Assembly: GCF_900112675.1 (NCBI RefSeq)
Contig: NZ_FOMQ01000004.1
Location: forward strand, 124,001 to 188,000
From: Paracidovorax konjaci
GTDB taxonomy: Bacteria > Pseudomonadota > Gammaproteobacteria > Burkholderiales > Burkholderiaceae_C
DNA: 64,000 nucleotides
Direction of reading: 5' to 3'
The notes beneath the pieces were generated by a model. It was not told the DNA's origin, did not search any database, and worked only from the letters and a program-made list of their open reading frames with translations. The position numbers and the translations under genes are program-made. Shown here piece after piece: positions 1 through 30,024 of this stretch; positions within the stretch are counted from its first letter, which is position 1; each line of letters starts with the position of its first letter.

Positions 1-323
1 GCACTGGGACTAACGGTCCCCGCTTGGCGATGTGTGGCTGCTTGCAGGGTATCAGTCTTTGCCTATGCCTCGCATAGCCAAAGTTGGCGTATACCGTGTT
101 ACAACATGTGCATTGACGTTGCATCCGAAGTACAGCGGGAGGAGATTGTGTTCAAAAGAATGAGGCGCATGAGCGTCATTGAGGCGGCCAGCACTCCACA
201 TCAGAGTGATGCGAGTCTGGCTTGCGCATCCCTACTGAGGTCAGTGCTGTTTCAGTTCGGAGTAGTAGGCATACAGCATCGTTGCCCTGGCCGCCTCTTC
301 AACCGATCAGAGTAGCCAAGCCC
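1..323. other. Region upstream of the ABC-3C operon, no gene recognised
   Basis: Short open frames occur on both strands but none has a convincing ribosome binding site or recognisable product. The promoter of the downstream operon should be here, but I see no clear -35/-10 pair. Confidence 0.4.
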
Positions 324-1115
324 ATGACTACGACAGCGACGAAGCCAAAGCGAATCGACTACACGGACAACCAGCACAGCATTTTGTACGCGGAGACGGG
401 GGGGTGCTGTCCTCTGTGTAGGGCTCCAATTCTCTTCCGAAAGCCCGGGGCCAAGAAGATCACGAAAAGCTATGAGGTTGCTCATATTTTTCCACTTCAT
501 CCCACGCCCGCCCAGACTCAGGCGCTCGCAGGACGGACGCCCCCTATTGACATCAACGGTCTAGAAAACGTCATCGCGTTGTGCCCCACCTGTCACACAC
601 GCTTCGACAAGAATTTTGAGATTGATGAGATGGATCACATCCGAAAATTAAAGGATAGGTTCCTCGCTGATGCAAAAGCCAAAGAGACGGCGGCCCAATA
701 TGGGATTCAACAAGAGGTGTTTGGAATACTCGACAAAATCGCAGCTATGGGAAGCGACGTTGCAGCGATACCACCTGCCCAGTTTGAAATATCTACCGTC
801 GAGAAGAAGCTGCGAAATGGGATGAGCCAGTTGCAGCAGAGTGAAATAAAGCTATATGCAACTAGCTACTACATCCGGATTCGAGACCATATCCGGCTTC
901 TAGAGCAGAACGACCAACTTTCAATCCGAATTCTGCAGTCGCAGATACAAACCTATTATCTTGAGATGCAGCGACAGCATCCTGCTAATAAAGATGCAGT
1001 TTTTACCTATGTGGCTGAGTGGATAAGTAGTAGGACAGGAAGGTCAATGATTGCGGCCAGAGTTCTTACTTCATTTTTTGTCCAAAATTGCGAGGTATTT
1101 GATGCTGGTGCCTAG
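324..1115 (+). CDS. HNH endonuclease effector of an ABC three-component (ABC-3C) system
   Basis: The 263-residue protein has an N-terminal HNH nuclease module: a zinc pair C29-x2-C32, the AHI histidine H54, N82, then CPTCH (C87, C90, H91). Residues after about 110 are helical and end in a conserved-looking segment (SFFVQNCEVFD) that I associate with the C-terminal domain of ABC-3C effectors, thought to dock on the ATPase. The start is placed at ATG 324; the open frame extends upstream to 222 without conserved sequence. The stop overlaps the next gene. By analogy with predicted ABC-3C systems, the ATPase would sense foreign DNA and license this nuclease. Nuclease fold confidence is high; the defence role is inferred. 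Confidence 0.8.
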   Translation: MTTTATKPKRIDYTDNQHSILYAETGGCCPLCRAPILFRKPGAKKITKSYEVAHIFPLHPTPAQTQALAGRTPPIDINGLENVIALCPTCHTRFDKNFEIDEMDHIRKLKDRFLADAKAKETAAQYGIQQEVFGILDKIAAMGSDVAAIPPAQFEISTVEKKLRNGMSQLQQSEIKLYATSYYIRIRDHIRLLEQNDQLSIRILQSQIQTYYLEMQRQHPANKDAVFTYVAEWISSRTGRSMIAARVLTSFFVQNCEVFDAGA

Positions 1116-1320
1116 TAAGTTCACAAGACTTGAAGAGTCGACCATCTTCAAGATGGCGAAGATTCTTCGGGGTAGGCCTGATTCTGAAAGTGTGTTGGAT
1201 CTTTATCGCCGAACGCGAAGCGTTTTTCAAGACGCAAGTGAATTTCTTCACGCAGTTGATGCACTATATGTGCTCGGAATGCTAGAGGTAGACGAATTGG
1301 GGCAGGTTAATTATGCTTAA
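1102..1320 (+). CDS. ABC-3C middle component (MC6-like small protein)
   Basis: A 72-residue protein beginning MLVPSKF, followed by two short helices and a C-terminal hydrophobic strand ending near LGMLEVDELG. This layout matches the small middle-component families that bridge effector and ATPase in ABC-3C systems. The frame is open from 1051, but ATG 1102 gives the family-like N-terminus and has a purine-rich stretch (gagg) just upstream. It overlaps the effector stop by 14 bases and the ATPase start by 8 bases, so translation of the three genes is almost certainly coupled. Too short for a secure family call without a profile search. Confidence 0.7.
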   Translation: MLVPSKFTRLEESTIFKMAKILRGRPDSESVLDLYRRTRSVFQDASEFLHAVDALYVLGMLEVDELGQVNYA

Positions 1321-2932
1321 AACAATAACTGGTGAATACTTTAGCCAGGGTGAAATTTGTTTTCATGAAGGGTTAAATATAATCTTGGGGGATGACGATG
1401 CGCGTAACTCCATCGGAAAATCCACGGTTTTAATGGTGATCGATTTCGTTATGGGAGGCTCAACCTTCCTGGCGGACGAGGCGGGTGTTATTAGGGAGTT
1501 GGGACATCATCATTACAACTTCTCCCTGGAATTCAATAGCGAGATTTTTTACTTTTCGCGCGATACAGCCTCACCGGAGGTCATTCAAATTTGCGATGAA
1601 AAGTACATCCGGATTGGCGAGATTTCGCTTGATGAATTCAAGAAATTCTTGAAATCAGGGTACGGACTGGAAGATTTGGAGACGTCTTTTCGGTCAGTAG
1701 TCAATCCTTTCTCGCGGATATGGAGAAAGGGCGGTCTGGATCCGAACCAGCCATTTGTCGGTGCAGCAAAAGAGGCGAATGCCATTGCAATCGCTAGAAT
1801 TATTGACCTGTTTGAGCGAAGCGCCGACATCGCTGCTGAGCGGGCTGTCCTTGAAGTGCAAAAGGAAAAGAAATCACTCATAAATAAATCCATGGGTGCA
1901 AATATAATTCCAAGCATCAATAGGAAAAAGCGTGAGGAGAATATCCGACTGATTGAGGAGAATGGCGGAAAGATTCAGCAACTCAAGGAGGGTTTTGGTG
2001 GGGCATTGAGTACCTATGAATCATTGTTTGATGAGGAGCTCAAAAGGCAGCAGTATCGAAAGAATGACCTGTCCGCACTTCGCACTGAGTTGCAAAACAA
2101 AATTCGACGTTTGCAGAGAGAAATGTCGGGAATAACACCGCGGCTTGCTGCAAATATCGCACTTTTGGCAGATTTCTTCCCTGTCATAAATGTTGAGCGT
2201 TTAGAACAAGTCGAAACGTTTCATCAGAAAATTGGAGCCGCTGTTAAGAAAGAGTTAAGAGAAGAGCTTGAGAATGCGCAGCGTGAAGACCATGAAATGG
2301 GAGTTGAAATCGCGGCCATTGAAAGTCATATCCAAGCGAAGCTTAGCTCTAAGGGAATGCCTGATGATCTTTTTAAACAGGTATTTGACCTCAAGGAAAC
2401 CACTGACAGAGCTGCGGAGGAAAATAAGCACTTTGATCAAAAGGTCGACTTGGAAGAAGCAATCAGGGCTACCAATGAGAGGCTCGATAGAATATATGCA
2501 AAGATATTTCTTGATCTAGAGAATCGAATTAACCTGAAACTGAAGGCCTTCAATGCGGTAGTTTATGGCGCATCTAGGGCCAGTTCAGAGCTGCGCTTCA
2601 AAAGCGCCAGCTCTTATCAGTTCACGTCCCCAGCAGATTCTGGAACAGGCGCGTCCTATGCGGGCTTGATCGGATTTGACCTTGCAATGCTCTCGCTAAC
2701 AAAAACTCCTTACATCATCCACGACTCGGTTATCTATAAAAACATTCAAGTAACAGCCGTCAAAAGAATTTTGCGCATATTGGCAGCAGCTAAGTCAAAG
2801 CAGATATTCATTTCATTCGATGAGGGGAAGAAGTACGGCCAAGAGTTTGTCGCGTTCCTTCAGCGCTTCACCGTCTTGAAACTGGCCCACGACAAGTTGC
2901 TTTATAAGAAGGATTGGCGTGACCGCAAGTGA
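1313..2932 (+). CDS. DUF2326-type SMC/ABC ATPase of an ABC-3C system
   Basis: This 539-residue protein has an N-terminal ATPase half with an atypical P-loop: NSIGKST at residues 32-38 follows an acidic GDDD turn and lacks the first glycine of a classical Walker A, as is usual in this family. A long coiled coil covers roughly residues 180-400. The C-terminal half has the signature-like SGTGASYAG near 441 and a Walker-B-like strand, IIHDSV, near 467. This head-coil-head plan is Rad50/SMC-like. The start overlaps the preceding stop in the arrangement ATGCTTAA. Codon use is AT-rich compared with the chromosome. It is expected to power or gate the HNH effector. Confidence 0.8.
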   Translation: MLKTITGEYFSQGEICFHEGLNIILGDDDARNSIGKSTVLMVIDFVMGGSTFLADEAGVIRELGHHHYNFSLEFNSEIFYFSRDTASPEVIQICDEKYIRIGEISLDEFKKFLKSGYGLEDLETSFRSVVNPFSRIWRKGGLDPNQPFVGAAKEANAIAIARIIDLFERSADIAAERAVLEVQKEKKSLINKSMGANIIPSINRKKREENIRLIEENGGKIQQLKEGFGGALSTYESLFDEELKRQQYRKNDLSALRTELQNKIRRLQREMSGITPRLAANIALLADFFPVINVERLEQVETFHQKIGAAVKKELREELENAQREDHEMGVEIAAIESHIQAKLSSKGMPDDLFKQVFDLKETTDRAAEENKHFDQKVDLEEAIRATNERLDRIYAKIFLDLENRINLKLKAFNAVVYGASRASSELRFKSASSYQFTSPADSGTGASYAGLIGFDLAMLSLTKTPYIIHDSVIYKNIQVTAVKRILRILAAAKSKQIFISFDEGKKYGQEFVAFLQRFTVLKLAHDKLLYKKDWRDRK

Positions 2933-3374: not shown

Positions 3375-3400
3375 GGGTTCAATTCCCGCCAGCTCCACCA
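3375..3400 (+). ncRNA. ssrA: 3'-terminal fragment of tmRNA (probable attR of the left island)
   Basis: The bases GGGTTCAATTCCCGCCAGCT followed by CCACCA are the T-arm, acceptor 3' strand and CCA end of a bacterial tmRNA, close to the E. coli form. No tmRNA body lies upstream. The base before GGG is A, which cannot pair with the G after CCC, so homology starts inside the T-stem as expected for a recombination core. The intact gene should be left of the window. Confidence 0.7.
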
Positions 3401-3653: not shown

Positions 3654-3760
3654 TTCTGGCACCCCGGAATGTGACACTAGTCATTCTGTATGCGTGTGAG
3701 CACGGGGTCAACCAAGCTAGCTTTAGACCTTGGACAGCACCGGATGGACAATGGCGGACC

Positions 3761-3794
3761 AAAAAAAACTCAGGTCAGCGTACGCTGACCTGAG
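3761..3794 (-). terminator. Palindromic terminator closing the leftmost minus-strand unit
   Basis: A perfect 26-bp palindrome (3769-3794, centre CAGCGTACGCTG) is followed on the minus strand by eight T. It can insulate the integrated element from the tmRNA side. Confidence 0.75.
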
Positions 3795-3860
3795 GGGGAA
3801 GGATGGGCCTCAAAGGCAGACCCTCTGCAAGTCGTCAAGCCGTAAGGCTCGACGATAGAT

Positions 3861-3880
3861 GGTGCATGCATTCATGCACC
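3861..3880. repeat. Short perfect hairpin downstream of the 41-residue gene
   Basis: Arms GGTGCATG and CATGCACC with a 4-base loop, 22 bases after the stop of the small minus-strand gene. No T-run follows, so it is not a typical terminator; it may stabilise the transcript 3' end. Confidence 0.5.
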
Positions 3881-3901
3881 GTCAGCTCAATGCTGACCAC
3901 T

Positions 3902-4027
3902 TTACTTGCGCTTCGAGTCATCGACCCAGAAGCGAAAGCACTTGCCGTTTTTGGGGTAGATCTTGCGGCCATTCTTGACGATGTAGCTGCACACAACCCA
4001 ACGGCCACCAGTACGTTCTGCTGGCAT
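3902..4027 (-). CDS. Small basic protein, 41 residues, unknown function
   Basis: A short open frame encoding MPAERTGGRWVVCSYIVKNG and 21 more residues ending in DDSKRK. It is rich in Lys, Arg and aromatic residues, with two cysteines. The start is supported by an aggaat ribosome binding site a few bases before the ATG, and coding character is good (no rare codons, sensible amino-acid content). It is the leftmost minus-strand gene of the element and is followed by hairpins and the palindromic terminator. I do not recognise the family; a small nucleic-acid-binding role would fit its charge, but that is a guess. Confidence 0.55.
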   Translation of the reverse strand: MPAERTGGRWVVCSYIVKNGRKIYPKNGKCFRFWVDDSKRK

Positions 4028-4160
4028 AGGATTCCTTTCTCATGGCAGGGCCATGAGGGGTTACCGGGATCATCGGTTGCAGTGCATAGCTTGAAAGCGT
4101 AAACTTCCAGGCCTTTCCGCAAAGAAAGCACCGCTGATGCCTCACCCGTACTCGGCACCC

Positions 4161-4191
4161 TGGTAGCGAGAACTTGTACCTCTCGCTACCA
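4161..4191. repeat. 11-bp-arm inverted repeat
   Basis: Arms TGGTAGCGAGA and TCTCGCTACCA with a 9-base loop, all perfect. No T-run on either side. It may be an operator or an RNA hairpin upstream of the small minus-strand gene. Confidence 0.6.
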
Positions 4192-4360
4192 ACCTATTTC
4201 AGTCAAATGCGAAGCTCATCTGACCTGGATGCGAACGCCAGTGTTGGGTCACCCACTCCCACCGTCCGAAGCGACGGCGGGTGTAGCGGCGAACAAACAC
4301 TGTCTTCAGACGCGTGTAGGGCATAGCCACCTCCATAGAAGATTGAGCGGTTTTGGCTTG

Positions 4361-4422
4361 CCTGAACACGCCGAACTGGTAGAGTTCGGTTCTGTCTTCC
4401 CCAAGACGTTTGTGTGTTCAGG
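4361..4422 (+). ncRNA. Candidate structured RNA with a three-way junction
   Basis: An outer 9-bp stem CCTGAACAC (4361-4369) / GTGTTCAGG (4414-4422) encloses two perfect hairpins: CCGAACT-GGTAG-AGTTCGG (4371-4389) and GTCTT-CCCC-AAGAC (4394-4407). An intrinsic terminator follows 30 bases later. Nested perfect pairing of this kind is unlikely by chance in a non-coding stretch. I could not name an RNA family. A single-strand origin or other cis-acting DNA fold is the alternative. Strand is chosen from the terminator. Confidence 0.45.
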
Positions 4423-4452
4423 TGGTTTGGTAGACCGCTGTTCACCATCCCA

Positions 4453-4491
4453 AGCTCACGGAATGCTTTCCTCATTTCGTGAGCTTTTTTT
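4453..4491 (+). terminator. Intrinsic terminator
   Basis: Stem AGCTCACG / CGTGAGCT with a 17-base loop, followed by seven T. It lies at the 3' end of the ImmA-like gene on the other strand (the stop codon overlaps the T-run), but its T-run points to a plus-strand transcript, supporting a non-coding RNA upstream. Confidence 0.7.
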
Positions 4492-5101
4492 ACTCTTGAC
4501 CGTACTCCCATAGGGGGTATGTCGGGGTCAATGTTTTGAGCTTGTTGACCAGTGTGTTGATCCGATAGGTTGCGGCTTCTACGCTAACGCCGCACATTGA
4601 TGCAAGCTCTTTGGGGGATTTCGCAACCTTGCATGCCTCTAGCGGCATCATGAGTGCAGCTGTACCAGCCTTGGCTTGCCACTCAGAATCCTCACAAAAT
4701 TTGTGAGCCCCGAGCTTGGCTCCGCGATGGAGGGTCACAGGATGCCCCAGTGCAATGTGAGCCAGTTCATGGACCACCGTACTGCGGCCAAAAGGGTTCC
4801 TCGCATGCAGCTTGTCGTAAATATCGATGCGCATCACAACGACATTTCCCTCTGGTGATGTGATTGTGAAAGCGGCGCATTCGTCAACTTCATCGATTTC
4901 AGCCGTGCGGTATGGGTAACCAATTTTCGGCATGGTGCGCTCAAAAATAGTGAGTGCATCCAAACGAAAACGCTCGCCCCTCTCAGTCGGCAAAGCAGAG
5001 CGAATAGAGTCTGCGAAATTCTCAATAGACGCATAACTCTGCGCTTTGACCTTGAGCCCACTAGGCGTGCGAATTACGCCGTCTTTCACAATCGTCGTCA
5101 T
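4490..5101 (-). CDS. ImmA/IrrE-family metallopeptidase
   Basis: The 203-residue protein carries the zinc-protease motif HELAHIALGH (H111, E112, H115) in the ImmA/IrrE context. In ICEBs1-like elements such a protease cleaves the partner repressor to induce excision and transfer. It starts 14 bases after the stop of the XRE regulator with the ribosome binding site AAGGAAGAG, so the two form an operon. The C-terminal part (about 150-190) resembles a helix-turn-helix-like tail (ASMCGVSVEAATYRIN) found in many of these proteins. Role in element induction is inferred from the pair; a toxin-antitoxin-like role is the alternative. Confidence 0.85.
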   Translation of the reverse strand: MTTIVKDGVIRTPSGLKVKAQSYASIENFADSIRSALPTERGERFRLDALTIFERTMPKIGYPYRTAEIDEVDECAAFTITSPEGNVVVMRIDIYDKLHARNPFGRSTVVHELAHIALGHPVTLHRGAKLGAHKFCEDSEWQAKAGTAALMMPLEACKVAKSPKELASMCGVSVEAATYRINTLVNKLKTLTPTYPLWEYGQE

Positions 5102-5115
5102 ACTCTTCCTTGTAG

Positions 5116-5481
5116 TTAGCTCTTTTTCTTAGAACCTTCGATCCAGCTAAGGATGGCTGGGGTGGGTGTGTTACCTTCATGTAGACGTCTGGCAAAAGCT
5201 GCCAAATGGCCGCGCGCCTCTGGAGACATGCCTGCCGTATCAATGATCTGTTTAGACTGCTCGGCAGCGTCACGAACCTGACGGATTTGCTCAGGGTCGC
5301 AATGCTGGCGGAGGAAGGTGATCGCGCTATCTATGTGCTTTTGCGATAGGCGCTTTTCGCCAAATTCCATTGAGCTAAGGTGCGCAGAGCTAATTCCCAT
5401 GGCCTCAGCCATAGTCTTCAACGACAGCCCGTGCTTGAGCCGCATCACACGGACAGCTTCTCCAAATGGCGTCAGTTTCAT
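5116..5481 (-). CDS. XRE-family repressor, partner of the ImmA-like protease
   Basis: A 121-residue protein with an N-terminal helix-turn-helix around residues 17-42 (LSLKTMAEAMGISSAHLSSM), then a helical region likely to dimerise. A ribosome binding site (aggag) precedes the ATG, and an extended -10 promoter lies about 85 bases upstream. The operon with the metallopeptidase is the ImmR/ImmA arrangement: the repressor keeps transfer genes silent until the protease cleaves it. Which promoter it represses is not shown; the paired operators at 6260-6305 are a candidate. Confidence 0.8.
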   Translation of the reverse strand: MKLTPFGEAVRVMRLKHGLSLKTMAEAMGISSAHLSSMEFGEKRLSQKHIDSAITFLRQHCDPEQIRQVRDAAEQSKQIIDTAGMSPEARGHLAAFARRLHEGNTPTPAILSWIEGSKKKS

Positions 5482-5562
5482 GATTTCTCCTATGGCCGGG
5501 CAGGTAAGTTGATGGTGTAGGTGTAGGCGTATGTATAGATTGGATGAAGCCCAGCCACTTGC

Positions 5563-5571
5563 ATTATAGCA
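5563..5571 (-). promoter_or_regulatory. Extended -10 promoter of the XRE/ImmA operon
   Basis: On the minus strand TGCTATAAT is a perfect extended -10 element, preceded by an AT-rich stretch with runs of T and without a good -35. It would give a leader of about 75 bases before the ATG at 5481. Confidence 0.55.
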
Positions 5572-5959
5572 AAAAAGTTATCCAAAAAGAAAACAATTCA
5601 GCAAGGCAGCAGCGCAACCTTCATGCTGTTGCCCGTCGGCAACACCTCTTTTGGTTAGCTATCTATCTTCCGCAAGATGGAGATCGCCTCACGGAGGCTG
5701 CAAGCGCAGTAGTCGAAGAACGAGAGGCCGCTTCAAGCCGTCCCAACGTAACCCGACACCTCTGCGTGCAGCAGCGTCCAAGCGGAAGTGGCTAACGGAA
5801 CCCTGCGAAACGGTTGGGGAGACGTCGCATCCAAGGCGGACAGAGAAATGCACGAAGATGCGCCGGACACCAGAGGGTTCTGTTAGCCGCGTTTAACAAG
5901 CCATGCACTCGGCACGCGAGCGACGTGACGTGCACACTGCTCAACCAAATGTCTAAGCA
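5572..5959. other. Intergenic region, no gene recognised
   Basis: Open frames on the plus strand have no ribosome binding site and no recognisable product. I see no strong repeat here. It may be decayed sequence. Confidence 0.4.
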
Positions 5960-6208
5960 CTACCGAGTGCGATTCGACTGCGATACCACGCTCCCCGCTA
6001 ATGTTCGAGTCACGGTTGACGAGCGCGGATTGTCCAGGGCTCCTGAAGCTTTGCTTTCCGTTCGCGTCCCCGTCTGTGCTGAAGTTCCTGCCTGCCGCAA
6101 TGCAGAACCAGCCAAGGAGCGTTGGATCGCACTCGCTGTGTCACTTTGAAGAGTCTTGCCAGCCAACGAAGCTACACGAGACGACGTCTGTTTGTTGTTT
6201 GAACTCAT
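5960..6208 (-). CDS. Small Ser/Ala-rich hypothetical protein
   Basis: An 82-residue protein. The first half (KQTSSRVASLAGKTL and then SLAGSALRQAGTS) has the repeated ASxL/SLAGSAL pattern of a widespread family of small uncharacterised bacterial proteins; the second half is low complexity. The start is fixed by GGAGG seven bases before the ATG and by a consensus promoter with two palindromic operators 50-100 bases upstream, so the gene is surely expressed and regulated. The function is unknown; members are often seen in mobile or conflict-related neighbourhoods. Confidence 0.65.
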   Translation of the reverse strand: MSSNNKQTSSRVASLAGKTLQSDTASAIQRSLAGSALRQAGTSAQTGTRTESKASGALDNPRSSTVTRTLAGSVVSQSNRTR

Positions 6209-6431: not shown

Positions 6432-6821
6432 TCACCACACCTTCGGCTTAGCCGCACTACCGCCATTGAAGGTGGCTTCATTGGCCTGCAAGGTCAATGC
6501 CGCTAATGCCAACTGCACCGCCATGATGCGGTCGTAAAGCTCCCCGCGCTTCTTCGCGTACTGCGGGTCAGACAGTGCAATGCTGTTGTAGGCCACATTG
6601 AGCTCACCCCACTGCACGTTCAGCATGGCGATCTGGATCATGAGCGCCCCCACCAGCGGCGCCTGCATGGGCATTCCTCCAATCCCCAGGGCCAGCAATC
6701 GGTGCGCATGCACCTTGCTGCTCTGGGTGGATGTTCTGGCTGGGCGCTGGCACGCCTTCGGCCTCTTGAAGACGAAGGGCTCCTGGCGGTCCTTTCTACG
6801 TTGCTGTGTTCTTGCGGTCAT
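6432..6821 (-). CDS. Possible nested 129-residue product of the relaxase gene
   Basis: Inside the relaxase gene and in the same frame, AGGAGG lies eight bases before an ATG at 6821, a better start signal than that of the relaxase itself. The product would be a basic N-terminal tail followed by a hydrophobic helix (MQAPLVGALMIQIAMLNV) and an amphipathic C-terminus. ColE1-type systems encode small accessory proteins (MbeB, MbeD) inside the relaxase gene, though in other frames. Real expression is not shown. Confidence 0.4.
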   Translation of the reverse strand: MTARTQQRRKDRQEPFVFKRPKACQRPARTSTQSSKVHAHRLLALGIGGMPMQAPLVGALMIQIAMLNVQWGELNVAYNSIALSDPQYAKKRGELYDRIMAVQLALAALTLQANEATFNGGSAAKPKVW

Positions 6822-7883
6822 GGTCGCTTCCTCCTGGTTGTTCTTGTTCTTGTTCGTGGTGGGTGGCAAGTTCGCTCGTTCGCTCCTGCCTCCGTGGTTT
6901 CTGGTGTGGTGGGTGCTGGTGGCCTTGATCCCCCTGCGCTTCGGCCCATATCGGCGTGGCTTGGCCTGCCCCAGCGGCTGCGCATAGAGCTTTTGGAAGT
7001 GCGCTGCGCGAGCCTGCTTCAAACGGCCCAGCTTCGCTTCGTTCCTGCTGAACTGCTGCTCCGTCAATTCCCTGGCCTGCAGCCTGTTCTGGTGGTCTGC
7101 ACGTAGCTGTGCATAGTCGGCATGGGCTGCGAACATGGGCCCCTTGAGACGAATGGCCTTCTGTTCTCCGGTGGGCATGAACGACACATAGTCCTGCCCG
7201 GCGCGGGTGACGGTGCCCAGTTCCCCCAGGTGCTCGATGAGCTCCTGGCGGCTGTTTAATTGCCCTTGGGCAATGGCAGTGCCGAACAGGCTCTGCAGTT
7301 CGTCCCTGATGGCCCTGTGGCTGCTGGCCTGTTGGCAGATCTGGGCGGTCGCTTCTTTCAGCGGCAGCACCTGGGTTTCAAAGCGCGAACGCATGACCTT
7401 GAACGGGTCGGCCACGACCTGTTCATAGCCCAGCACATGGTTCATGTTCTGCACCCAGGCGTCATTGAATTCGTGCTGCACGTCGCCCGGCGGAAACGGG
7501 TTCATTTGCTTGCCGCTGGTCAGCTCCGTCGTTGCCAGCAGGTAGTTCAGTTCCAGATTGCCTTTGTCCTTATGCGCCACCCAGGCGATTGCATAGTGCT
7601 GGCCCTTCTGGAGTCCCGGCAGGAACGTGCGTTCAAAGTCACGCATGATTTCTCGCTGCTGGGCGACGGTGGGGCGTTCGCTGTCTCGGAACGACAGACA
7701 CCCGCAGACGTATTTGTGGGCACGGTGGGTTTGATTGGCGAGGGCTGCCACCAGCAGCGGATCGCCGTCCAGAACGACCGGAGGAACGCTGCGGGTCTTG
7801 CCGGCATGATCCTGGTTGCTCATGAGATAGCGGGCAGCCTGCAAGGCGTTGCCCTGGCCGTGAGGCATGCGCACGTGAATCAT
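6432..7883 (-). CDS. mobA: ColE1/MbeA-type (HEN) relaxase
   Basis: The 483-residue protein nicks oriT and pilots the strand in mobilization. Tyr19 in AARYL sits where the catalytic tyrosine of MbeA lies, and HKDKGNLELN gives H104, E111 and N113, the spacing of the HEN signature that replaces the histidine triad in ColE1-type relaxases. Residues from about 310 form a basic linker rich in Asn/Lys and a C-terminal helical region. The start overlaps the mobC stop (ATGA). A strong ribosome binding site and ATG lie in frame at 6821, so a shorter C-terminal product is possible. There is no transfer apparatus nearby, so a helper plasmid or ICE is required. Confidence 0.85.
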   Translation of the reverse strand: MIHVRMPHGQGNALQAARYLMSNQDHAGKTRSVPPVVLDGDPLLVAALANQTHRAHKYVCGCLSFRDSERPTVAQQREIMRDFERTFLPGLQKGQHYAIAWVAHKDKGNLELNYLLATTELTSGKQMNPFPPGDVQHEFNDAWVQNMNHVLGYEQVVADPFKVMRSRFETQVLPLKEATAQICQQASSHRAIRDELQSLFGTAIAQGQLNSRQELIEHLGELGTVTRAGQDYVSFMPTGEQKAIRLKGPMFAAHADYAQLRADHQNRLQARELTEQQFSRNEAKLGRLKQARAAHFQKLYAQPLGQAKPRRYGPKRRGIKATSTHHTRNHGGRSERANLPPTTNKNKNNQEEATMTARTQQRRKDRQEPFVFKRPKACQRPARTSTQSSKVHAHRLLALGIGGMPMQAPLVGALMIQIAMLNVQWGELNVAYNSIALSDPQYAKKRGELYDRIMAVQLALAALTLQANEATFNGGSAAKPKVW

Positions 7884-8290
7884 GGCTGCCCCTTCGGTGT
7901 TTCCTGCTGCTGGCTTGCAATCTGGGCCAATGCGGTTCGGACGACCTGCAACTGCTCGCCCAGCACCTGGGCGCTTTTGGGGTCATAGCGATTCAACTGG
8001 TGGGCGATCTGGTTCACGTTGGAGCCGATACGGCAAAGTGCGGCCAGCACCTGCATGCGTCCCTGCTGTTCGTCGCGGCGCTGCTGCTGGAACACGGCGA
8101 CGGGATCGACCGCACCGAAGACACGGGCACGGACGTGGCGGGCCAGCGAATTGCAGTCCGAAGCGGCCCAGGCCTGGGTCAGTGCTTCGTATTCCACCGG
8201 GGACAGGCGCATTTCAAAACGCAGGGTGCGACGGTAGCGGTGATCGTCGTTCGTGCGGCCTGGGGCCTTCTTCAGGGTGTGCTGTGGCAT
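7880..8290 (-). CDS. mobC: MobC-like relaxosome accessory protein
   Basis: A 136-residue basic protein whose region from about residue 20 to 55 resembles a ribbon-helix-helix DNA-binding domain (RYRRTLRFEMRLSPVEYEAL), then a helix with IGSNVNQIAHQLN, the pattern typical of MobC/MbeC proteins that bind oriT beside the relaxase. ATG 8290 is chosen because AAGGAG lies just before it; the frame is open to 8335, but that start falls inside an inverted repeat of the oriT region. It overlaps mobA by four bases. Confidence 0.8.
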   Translation of the reverse strand: MPQHTLKKAPGRTNDDHRYRRTLRFEMRLSPVEYEALTQAWAASDCNSLARHVRARVFGAVDPVAVFQQQRRDEQQGRMQVLAALCRIGSNVNQIAHQLNRYDPKSAQVLGEQLQVVRTALAQIASQQQETPKGQP

Positions 8291-8326
8291 GTCTTCGTCT
8301 CCTTGTTCTTCTTGTCGTTCAGGGTC

Positions 8327-8390
8327 ATAGGGCAACGCCCTATCAAGGGGATTGCGCAGCGGCCAAATTCATTTGGCCGTCATGCGCAAT
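8327..8390. other. Candidate origin of transfer (oriT)
   Basis: Upstream of mobC lie two inverted repeats: ATAGGGC-AAC-GCCCTAT (8327-8343) and a longer one at 8351-8390 with arms ATTGCGCA...TGCGCAAT and inner arms GGCCAAAT/ATTTGGCC. ColE1-type oriT sites lie directly upstream of the mob genes and contain such repeats. I could not assign the nick site. Confidence 0.5.
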
Positions 8391-29801: not shown

Positions 29802-30024
29802 GACTCGGCAGTGGGGCTGTGTTGCCGAAATGTACGCGACGCGCAAGGCATATCTCCGGGGCTTTGTGATCGTGTGGGCGTCGGCAGGTGTTCGATGGCA
29901 CAATCGTGGCCGCAAGATTAAGGCCCTTCCCCAGCCACAGTCGCATCCGCCAACCGGTTCAGCCGTGTCGCGGAAGGTTTACCAACCAGCTAATGCTTCC
30001 CTCAGGGAAGCGGAGGTCAGCGGA

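Follow-up and report, generated by a model that had tools for sequence, protein, structure and literature searches.

Type I toxin–antitoxin systems with a cis-encoded antisense RNA include SymE/SymR, Fst, hok/sok and ptaRNA1, and antisense copy control over a pseudoknotted leader is found in the IncI/IncB RepZ and R1 CopA/CopT systems. A short antisense RNA lying over a structured leader is the plan of both groups. In the 64,000-nucleotide stretch of Paracidovorax konjaci DNA analyzed here (the window), we describe a locus with a similar layout: a 41-aa gene on the minus strand (ORF1), its structured leader and a predicted antisense RNA on the plus strand. Its likeness to type I toxin–antitoxins lies in the small ORF, the predicted antisense RNA over the mRNA leader and the carriage by mobile elements. 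It differs in that ORF1 is basic, with a predicted beta fold, and not hydrophobic, the leader is pseudoknotted and there is no Rfam or NCBIfam match. RepZ and CopA/CopT, like the predicted unit here, have a short antisense RNA that targets a leader with a loop engaged in a pseudoknot ahead of an ORF; however, no replication gene comes after ORF1 or ORF2 in the window, as plasmid copy control would have it, and what follows ORF1 is ORF2 and a minus-strand terminator. ORF1's place also has parallels in print: Fst-Sm, a type I system, sits after immA in TnSmu1 (PMC10233336) and symE occurs in Pseudomonas defence hotspots (PMC10250203). "ptaRNA1-family toxin" is a product name used by NCBI, according to one article (PMC11278526); neither ORF1 nor ORF2 matched that toxin in NCBIfam, and ptaRNA1 and the other Rfam antisense families gave no covariance-model match at the window module or at the other loci scanned.

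A small conserved gene and its relatives

The fold at 4361–4491 was first thought to lie in a region free of protein genes. The alignment of relatives overturned this view by revealing a conserved minus-strand frame, ORF1 (4324–4199), behind a Shine–Dalgarno-like site (4327–4334), with the hairpins forming its 5′ leader. Two further stems had been proposed to extend the fold; the one at 4262–4277 sits within the ORF1 coding sequence and the one at 4161–4191 opens a second, similar leader instead. Across 19 loci, codon positions one, two and three of ORF1 carry 1373, 1333 and 3036 pairwise differences, and codon changes divide into 2025 synonymous and 1772 others, a pattern that, judged from the alignment, is that of a gene under coding constraint. 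In its length and coding constraint, ORF1 corresponds to the small protein gene of a type I toxin–antitoxin.

By profile match, ORF1 is a member of phrog_21154 (E 6e-9), a family of phage proteins whose PHROG entry carries no function. No Pfam family was matched above cut-off by ORF1 or its tested relatives, and none of the PADLOC models matched ORF1. The protein is arginine-rich and basic, lacks a hydrophobic stretch of the sort that many type I toxins have, and has twelve residues that are invariant across 34 aligned relatives. An AlphaFold model (30 relatives) shows four strands with mean pLDDT 80 and pTM 0.42, i.e., a small beta fold is predicted; fold searches with it gave no convincing match (E 0.34 for the best viral hit, E 2.3 for the best PDB hit and one chain at Z 2.0).

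Among 299 genomes of the same family, a DNA search matched nine: the genome itself, three real relatives (L002–L004, where L numbers are our locus handles) with about 70% identity over window positions 4217–4454, and five short matches. Protein-guided scans reached further. Species genomes yielded 21 loci, and viral contigs yielded 13 in one scan and 32 in a later one, with overlap between the two sets. In addition, 27 plasmid records matched with E no greater than 0.1, and two queries gave three phage records each, Marinitoga phages accounting for two. Relatives of ORF1 occur in viral contigs, plasmids and chromosomes; the family is carried by 14 of the 299 genomes and is present in an E. coli control genome, and no relative was found in the Rac prophage stretch of E. 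coli K-12. Searches of plasmid and phage DNA with the window's own leader gave no match. A class-wide search with R1, a covariance model of 13 sequences, matched 1 of 369 under strict filters, the source genome itself, and the breadth described here therefore rests on the protein-guided searches.

Downstream of ORF1, a second cassette has the same layout. ORF2 (3902–4027, minus strand) also encodes 41 aa, with a weak PHROG match and aligned loci, and is preceded by a second structured leader (4028–4198, minus strand; z −4.8 for 4025–4201; aligned in seven loci) whose first hairpin is the stem at 4161–4191. By eye, an antisense promoter-like site can be seen on the plus strand (TTGCAG at 4077–4082, 17 nt, TAAACT at 4100–4105), and TTGCAG and TARAMT stand approximately 17 nt apart in all seven aligned loci. 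The corresponding antisense RNA would span roughly 4113–4197, with a terminator tail that is weak in the window. An intrinsic terminator on the minus strand (3761–3794) was found after ORF2 by the terminator scan. In L029 and L041 an ORF2-like frame seems, by eye, to precede ORF1, the opposite of the order in the window.

The structured leader and its pseudoknot

The structure first described at 4361–4491 is largely real. The nine-base-pair closing stem is borne out, with CCTGAACAC (4361–4369) pairing with GTGTTCAGG (4414–4422) around two perfect hairpins, and the plus strand of 4361–4491 reaches a minimum free energy of −55.9 kcal/mol versus −31.9 on average for shuffles (z −6.3; none of 200 shuffles as low). 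When aligned relatives were inspected for changes that break the pairing, it was found to be kept. The Rfam search suggested by the initial annotation returned no match here, nor did any other locus scanned match Rfam at the module; a tRNA, a tmRNA or a known Rfam family was rejected at the fold.

Read on the minus strand, the leader of ORF1 (4325–4489) is defined by its relatives and by covariation. P1 (4424–4446) pairs 4444–4446 with 4424–4426, and its loop contains one pseudoknot strand (4434–4439), whose partner (4346–4351) is supported by covariation and by an arm-swap test. Between the two comes the three-way junction (4361–4422), in which P2 (4414–4422 with 4361–4369) surrounds P3 (4394–4407) and P4 (4372–4388). 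All four stems and the pseudoknot are kept in relatives, between the upstream stop codon and the Shine–Dalgarno site. The pseudoknot, formed by the P1 loop and a downstream stretch, had escaped the initial annotation. Of 26 loci with stems picked by eye, 25 have its second strand 19–29 nt ahead of the start codon; in L064 the distance to the start used is 47 nt. Its pairs covary: GCGGU/ACCGC in the window is replaced elsewhere by GGGGU/ACCCC, AAGGGU/ACCCUU, GAGAGCA/UGCUCUC or GAGGGCG/CGCCCUC.

In 22 aligned rows of the leader, which are related by descent, such that counts are not independent events, 89.6% of cells are paired versus 85.9% when shuffled, double-changed cells number 27 versus 9.3 and the covariation score is 0.198 versus 0.127 (0 of 500 shuffles in each case). 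Pairs with a double change number eight versus 4.3 (1 of 500). For further pair types, the counts of 20 versus 18.0 show no significant excess (65 of 500). When the structure was slid along the alignment as a control, only 24.5 to 48.0% of cells were paired. The arm-swap test of the pseudoknot, which uses fixed segments free of hand registration, gave an own-locus mean of 16.79 over 24 loci versus 14.94 for swapped arms (sd 0.44; highest of 200 permutations 16.38). In six loci (L035, L039, L048, L051, L070 and L085) the best pairing in this test was not the pseudoknot, and in L030 none of the 23 swaps scored lower than the locus's own arms. Hand-registered arms, which bias toward structure by construction, gave 35 double-changed cells in 23 pseudoknots and 36 in 14 P2 stems, as many as in none of 2000 arm shuffles; the count of pairs with any double change was reached by 52 (pseudoknot) and 570 (P2) of the 2000. 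Besides the window, R1 recovers 26 of 33 other loci with an E limit of 1 (25 with a limit of 0.01), although twelve of its training sequences come from these same loci; the seven that it misses include distant phage loci, whose shared plan is visible only by eye. What stands upstream of ORF1 is a conserved, covarying structure, as a structured leader would have.

Signals of a predicted antisense RNA

On the plus strand, a sigma70-like promoter (4358–4385) consists of TTGCCT (4358–4363), a 16-nt spacer and TAGAGT (4380–4385). A transcript starting 7 nt past the −10 element and ending in the T-tract of the intrinsic terminator at 4452–4491 would be an antisense RNA of about 99 nt (4393–4491, ends approximate), which folds with z −5.3 and whose sequence complements that of the P1/pseudoknot loop and of P3. 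The terminator, classed as strict in our scan and backed by relatives, had been noticed in the initial annotation, which placed it on the strand of the fold. This is correct for the terminator and not for the junction: since the predicted start, near 4393, falls inside the three-way junction, the transcript would be devoid of one arm of the closing stem.

The score of the window promoter is modest (11 of 60 shuffles as high), as single scores often are. The best plus-strand sigma70-like site falls at position 38–53 in 29 of 31 leaders (the exceptions are L032 and L063; L020 and L085 have it there in another register), while the best minus-strand sites in the same leaders are scattered. Twelve of 18 loci that took no part in the discovery of this pattern have their best site at 35–55. 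Among 48 dissimilar representatives (from 67 distinct members, 8-mer Jaccard below 0.15), 32 have it at the common place versus 5.5 expected from shuffles, a count that includes loci seen before and an interval fixed after the 31-leader scan; the shuffle fraction is 0.05 or less in 15 of the 32, and the best site is elsewhere in 16 of the 48. Of the named enteric and Acinetobacter members (L084, L087, L088, L089 and L105), four have their best site elsewhere and that of L084 is weak. A stricter consensus scan of window positions 3700–5700 listed no promoter on either strand, missing the antisense site too, and no sigma70-like promoter for a minus-strand mRNA was found in the same interval.

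At −15 kcal/mol or better, 25 of 46 loci have a terminator on the plus strand and two on the minus strand, with 2.2% of shuffles reaching this limit; at the loose limit of −8, the counts are 28 and six, with 29.6% of shuffles. The T-tract is on the plus strand. The terminator stem is more stable on the plus strand in many relatives (L014, −25.6 versus −15.5; L040, −22.6 versus −16.6; L085, −21.7 versus −15.3) and on the minus strand in L028 and L032, in a comparison that picked another hairpin for several loci. Predicted antisense RNAs in 20 listed loci measure 83–121 nt, some with promoter strings set by hand, and a T-tract is present in 19, L035 having none. In L049, L091, L095, L099 and L103 the antisense strand has GCTTTC near a hairpin in place of a T-tract, possibly another kind of 3′ end. 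Sequence signatures for the promoter and terminator of a putative antisense gene, such as a type I system would have, are found here and recur in many relatives.

Genomic setting and competing interpretations

Directly upstream of ORF1, on the same strand, is the gene of an ImmA/IrrE (M78) family peptidase (4490–5101), followed by that of an XRE-type HTH regulator (5116–5481, minus strand). This is a recurrent arrangement, ORF1 relatives being often found directly after ImmA/IrrE-type genes. At other loci we tested 20 neighbor genes (17 upstream on the same strand and three on the other strand): nine are M78 above the Pfam cut-off, that of L048 falls just below it and the other ten are not M78. 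PADLOC identified PD-Lambda-2 A and B (L018), RosmerTA RmrA (L036) and capP (L062) among ORF1 neighbors; candidate defence ATPases adjoin ORF1 in L078 and L084, and an annotated reverse transcriptase does so in L089. Genes of the ImmR/ImmA, CapH/CapP, RosmerTA and PD-lambda-2 kind are recurrent neighbors, but ORF1 matches none of their PADLOC models and has other settings too, beside unrelated genes.

The window contains other features. Genes for a MobC-like protein and a relaxase-like protein, the latter below the Pfam cut-off, lie at 6432–8335 on the minus strand, pointing to a mobilizable element. A stretch at 3376–3400 (plus strand) resembles what we take to be a tmRNA 3′ end, and full tmRNA matches lie on the same contig (C23:85522–85898 and C23:76830–77188). 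This suggests integration in tandem at the tmRNA gene; the module sits just past the fragment. Two neighboring genes at 222–2932 (plus strand) match the PADLOC candidate system PDC-M68 (A, 222–1115; B, 1313–2932). A small ORF of phrog_5079 is present at 5960–6208 (minus strand), and a relative of it stands directly after ORF1 in HigB/XRE-peptidase-linked loci. Far from the module, a sucA RNA motif (Rfam RF01070) at 29941–30022 (plus strand) exceeds its gathering score.

Taken as a whole, the locus is best explained as an antisense-controlled small-gene module, probably similar to type I toxin–antitoxins. The observed support consists of the covarying leader, the conserved ORF and the antisense promoter and terminator signatures, whereas transcription of both RNAs, repression and lability are inferred. 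The antisense arrangement, well backed by the sequence, is in our judgement likely, and the explanation as a whole is probable, if slightly less so; the toxicity of ORF1 is a guess that could fall either way with about equal chance. The initial annotation proposed a single plus-strand RNA of 4361–4491 folded as a three-way junction, or a fold of the DNA strand (e.g., near a transfer origin), and we consider either very improbable. The low predicted energy would agree with it, as would the presence of MobC and a relaxase-like gene in a mobile element; pseudoknot-free folding energy is also lower on the plus strand in 16 of 26 loci, counter to our minus-strand assignment, although we do not rely on it as a strand test because the pseudoknot is not modelled. 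Stem wobbles in 13 aligned loci fall mainly on the minus strand, with 25 G–U there versus 12 A–C (six of the latter at a single column pair), an asymmetry that is confounded in P4, whose columns overlap the −10 element. The consensus scan gave no promoter match in front of the junction, and the fold precedes ORF1 wherever it is found. Two overlapping RNAs explain the fold better than one: the idea of a regulatory RNA of the element survives as a plus-strand RNA ending at the terminator, supported by promoter position and by the terminator in relatives, and the junction is better assigned to the leader mRNA of a small gene on the opposite strand. It is also conceivable, if rather improbable, that there is a leader and nothing more. 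In this case the RNA would act in cis on ORF1 translation, either in the manner of a riboswitch or through binding of the basic ORF1 protein itself, and the plus-strand signals would be by-products of structure. The covarying pseudoknotted leader ahead of ORF1 and the arginine content of the protein are compatible with this, and the conserved GGCAA and UA that we read as the −35 and −10 elements do fall in the leader junction and the P4 loop. However, it leaves the plus-strand T-tracts and the near absence of strong minus-strand terminators to be explained, and the best promoter sites share one place even in leaders too divergent for R1.

A closer competitor, to which we give somewhat less than an even chance, shares the antisense part with our preferred explanation, so that the two confidences overlap: ORF1 would be no toxin, and would be an antisense-controlled accessory gene that regulates or helps the neighboring defence or toxin–antitoxin module, or the mobile element. 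The nine M78 peptidases among the 20 neighbors speak for it. PD-lambda-2 is described as comprising a HigB-like protein, an XRE-peptidase and a P4-antitoxin-related third component, which defence requires but toxin neutralization does not (PMC9519451); this leaves room for ORF1 as an accessory. RosmerTA antitoxins with an ImmA domain are described in another report (PMC10440598). Against an accessory role, ORF1 has no PADLOC match and also adjoins unrelated genes, and only one of three full-length PD-Lambda-2_B loci has the module within the fetched flank. Linkage between the module and PD-Lambda-2 is not fixed. We rejected ORF1 as a PADLOC component on the lack of a model match, and as the third component of PD-Lambda-2 on that result and the linkage together.

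Under the antisense-controlled, type I-like explanation, the minus strand would yield an ORF1 mRNA by read-through from the XRE–ImmA genes or from a promoter that our scan did not pick up, and its leader would fold into the three-way junction and the pseudoknot. The plus strand would yield the antisense RNA of about 99 nt from the promoter within the leader, ending at the 4452–4491 terminator. Because this RNA is complementary to the P1/pseudoknot loop and P3, pairing should block leader folding and translation, or open the duplex to RNase III cleavage. Once the element ceased to be transcribed, or XRE/ImmA responded to damage, a short-lived antisense RNA would disappear and ORF1 synthesis would follow, which is the logic of a type I toxin–antitoxin. 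A bolder conjecture, which we regard as doubtful, is that phrog_21154 and its antisense RNA of approximately 83–121 nt make up a widespread, unrecognized type I toxin–antitoxin family on phages, plasmids and islands, serving ImmA-type defence modules as their killing arm: shut-off of transcription by a phage, or DNA damage, would lead to antisense decay and to the release of ORF1, and of ORF2 by way of the tandem cassette.

A search of open-licence PMC papers found no description of the ORF1/antisense module. The phrog_21154 protein family is already catalogued, and the leader and antisense unit are the additions of this analysis. If our explanation is right, phrog_21154 proteins, from Proteobacteria to two Marinitoga phages, would be under antisense control like that of type I toxin–antitoxins, and a structured RNA would be added that the searched copy of Rfam lacks. 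Together with their recurrent place beside phage-defence genes, this would provide a direct hypothesis for phrog_21154, and antisense-controlled peptides wired to ImmA-type DNA-damage sensors, a link to which the position of Fst-Sm in TnSmu1 points, would become a testable idea.
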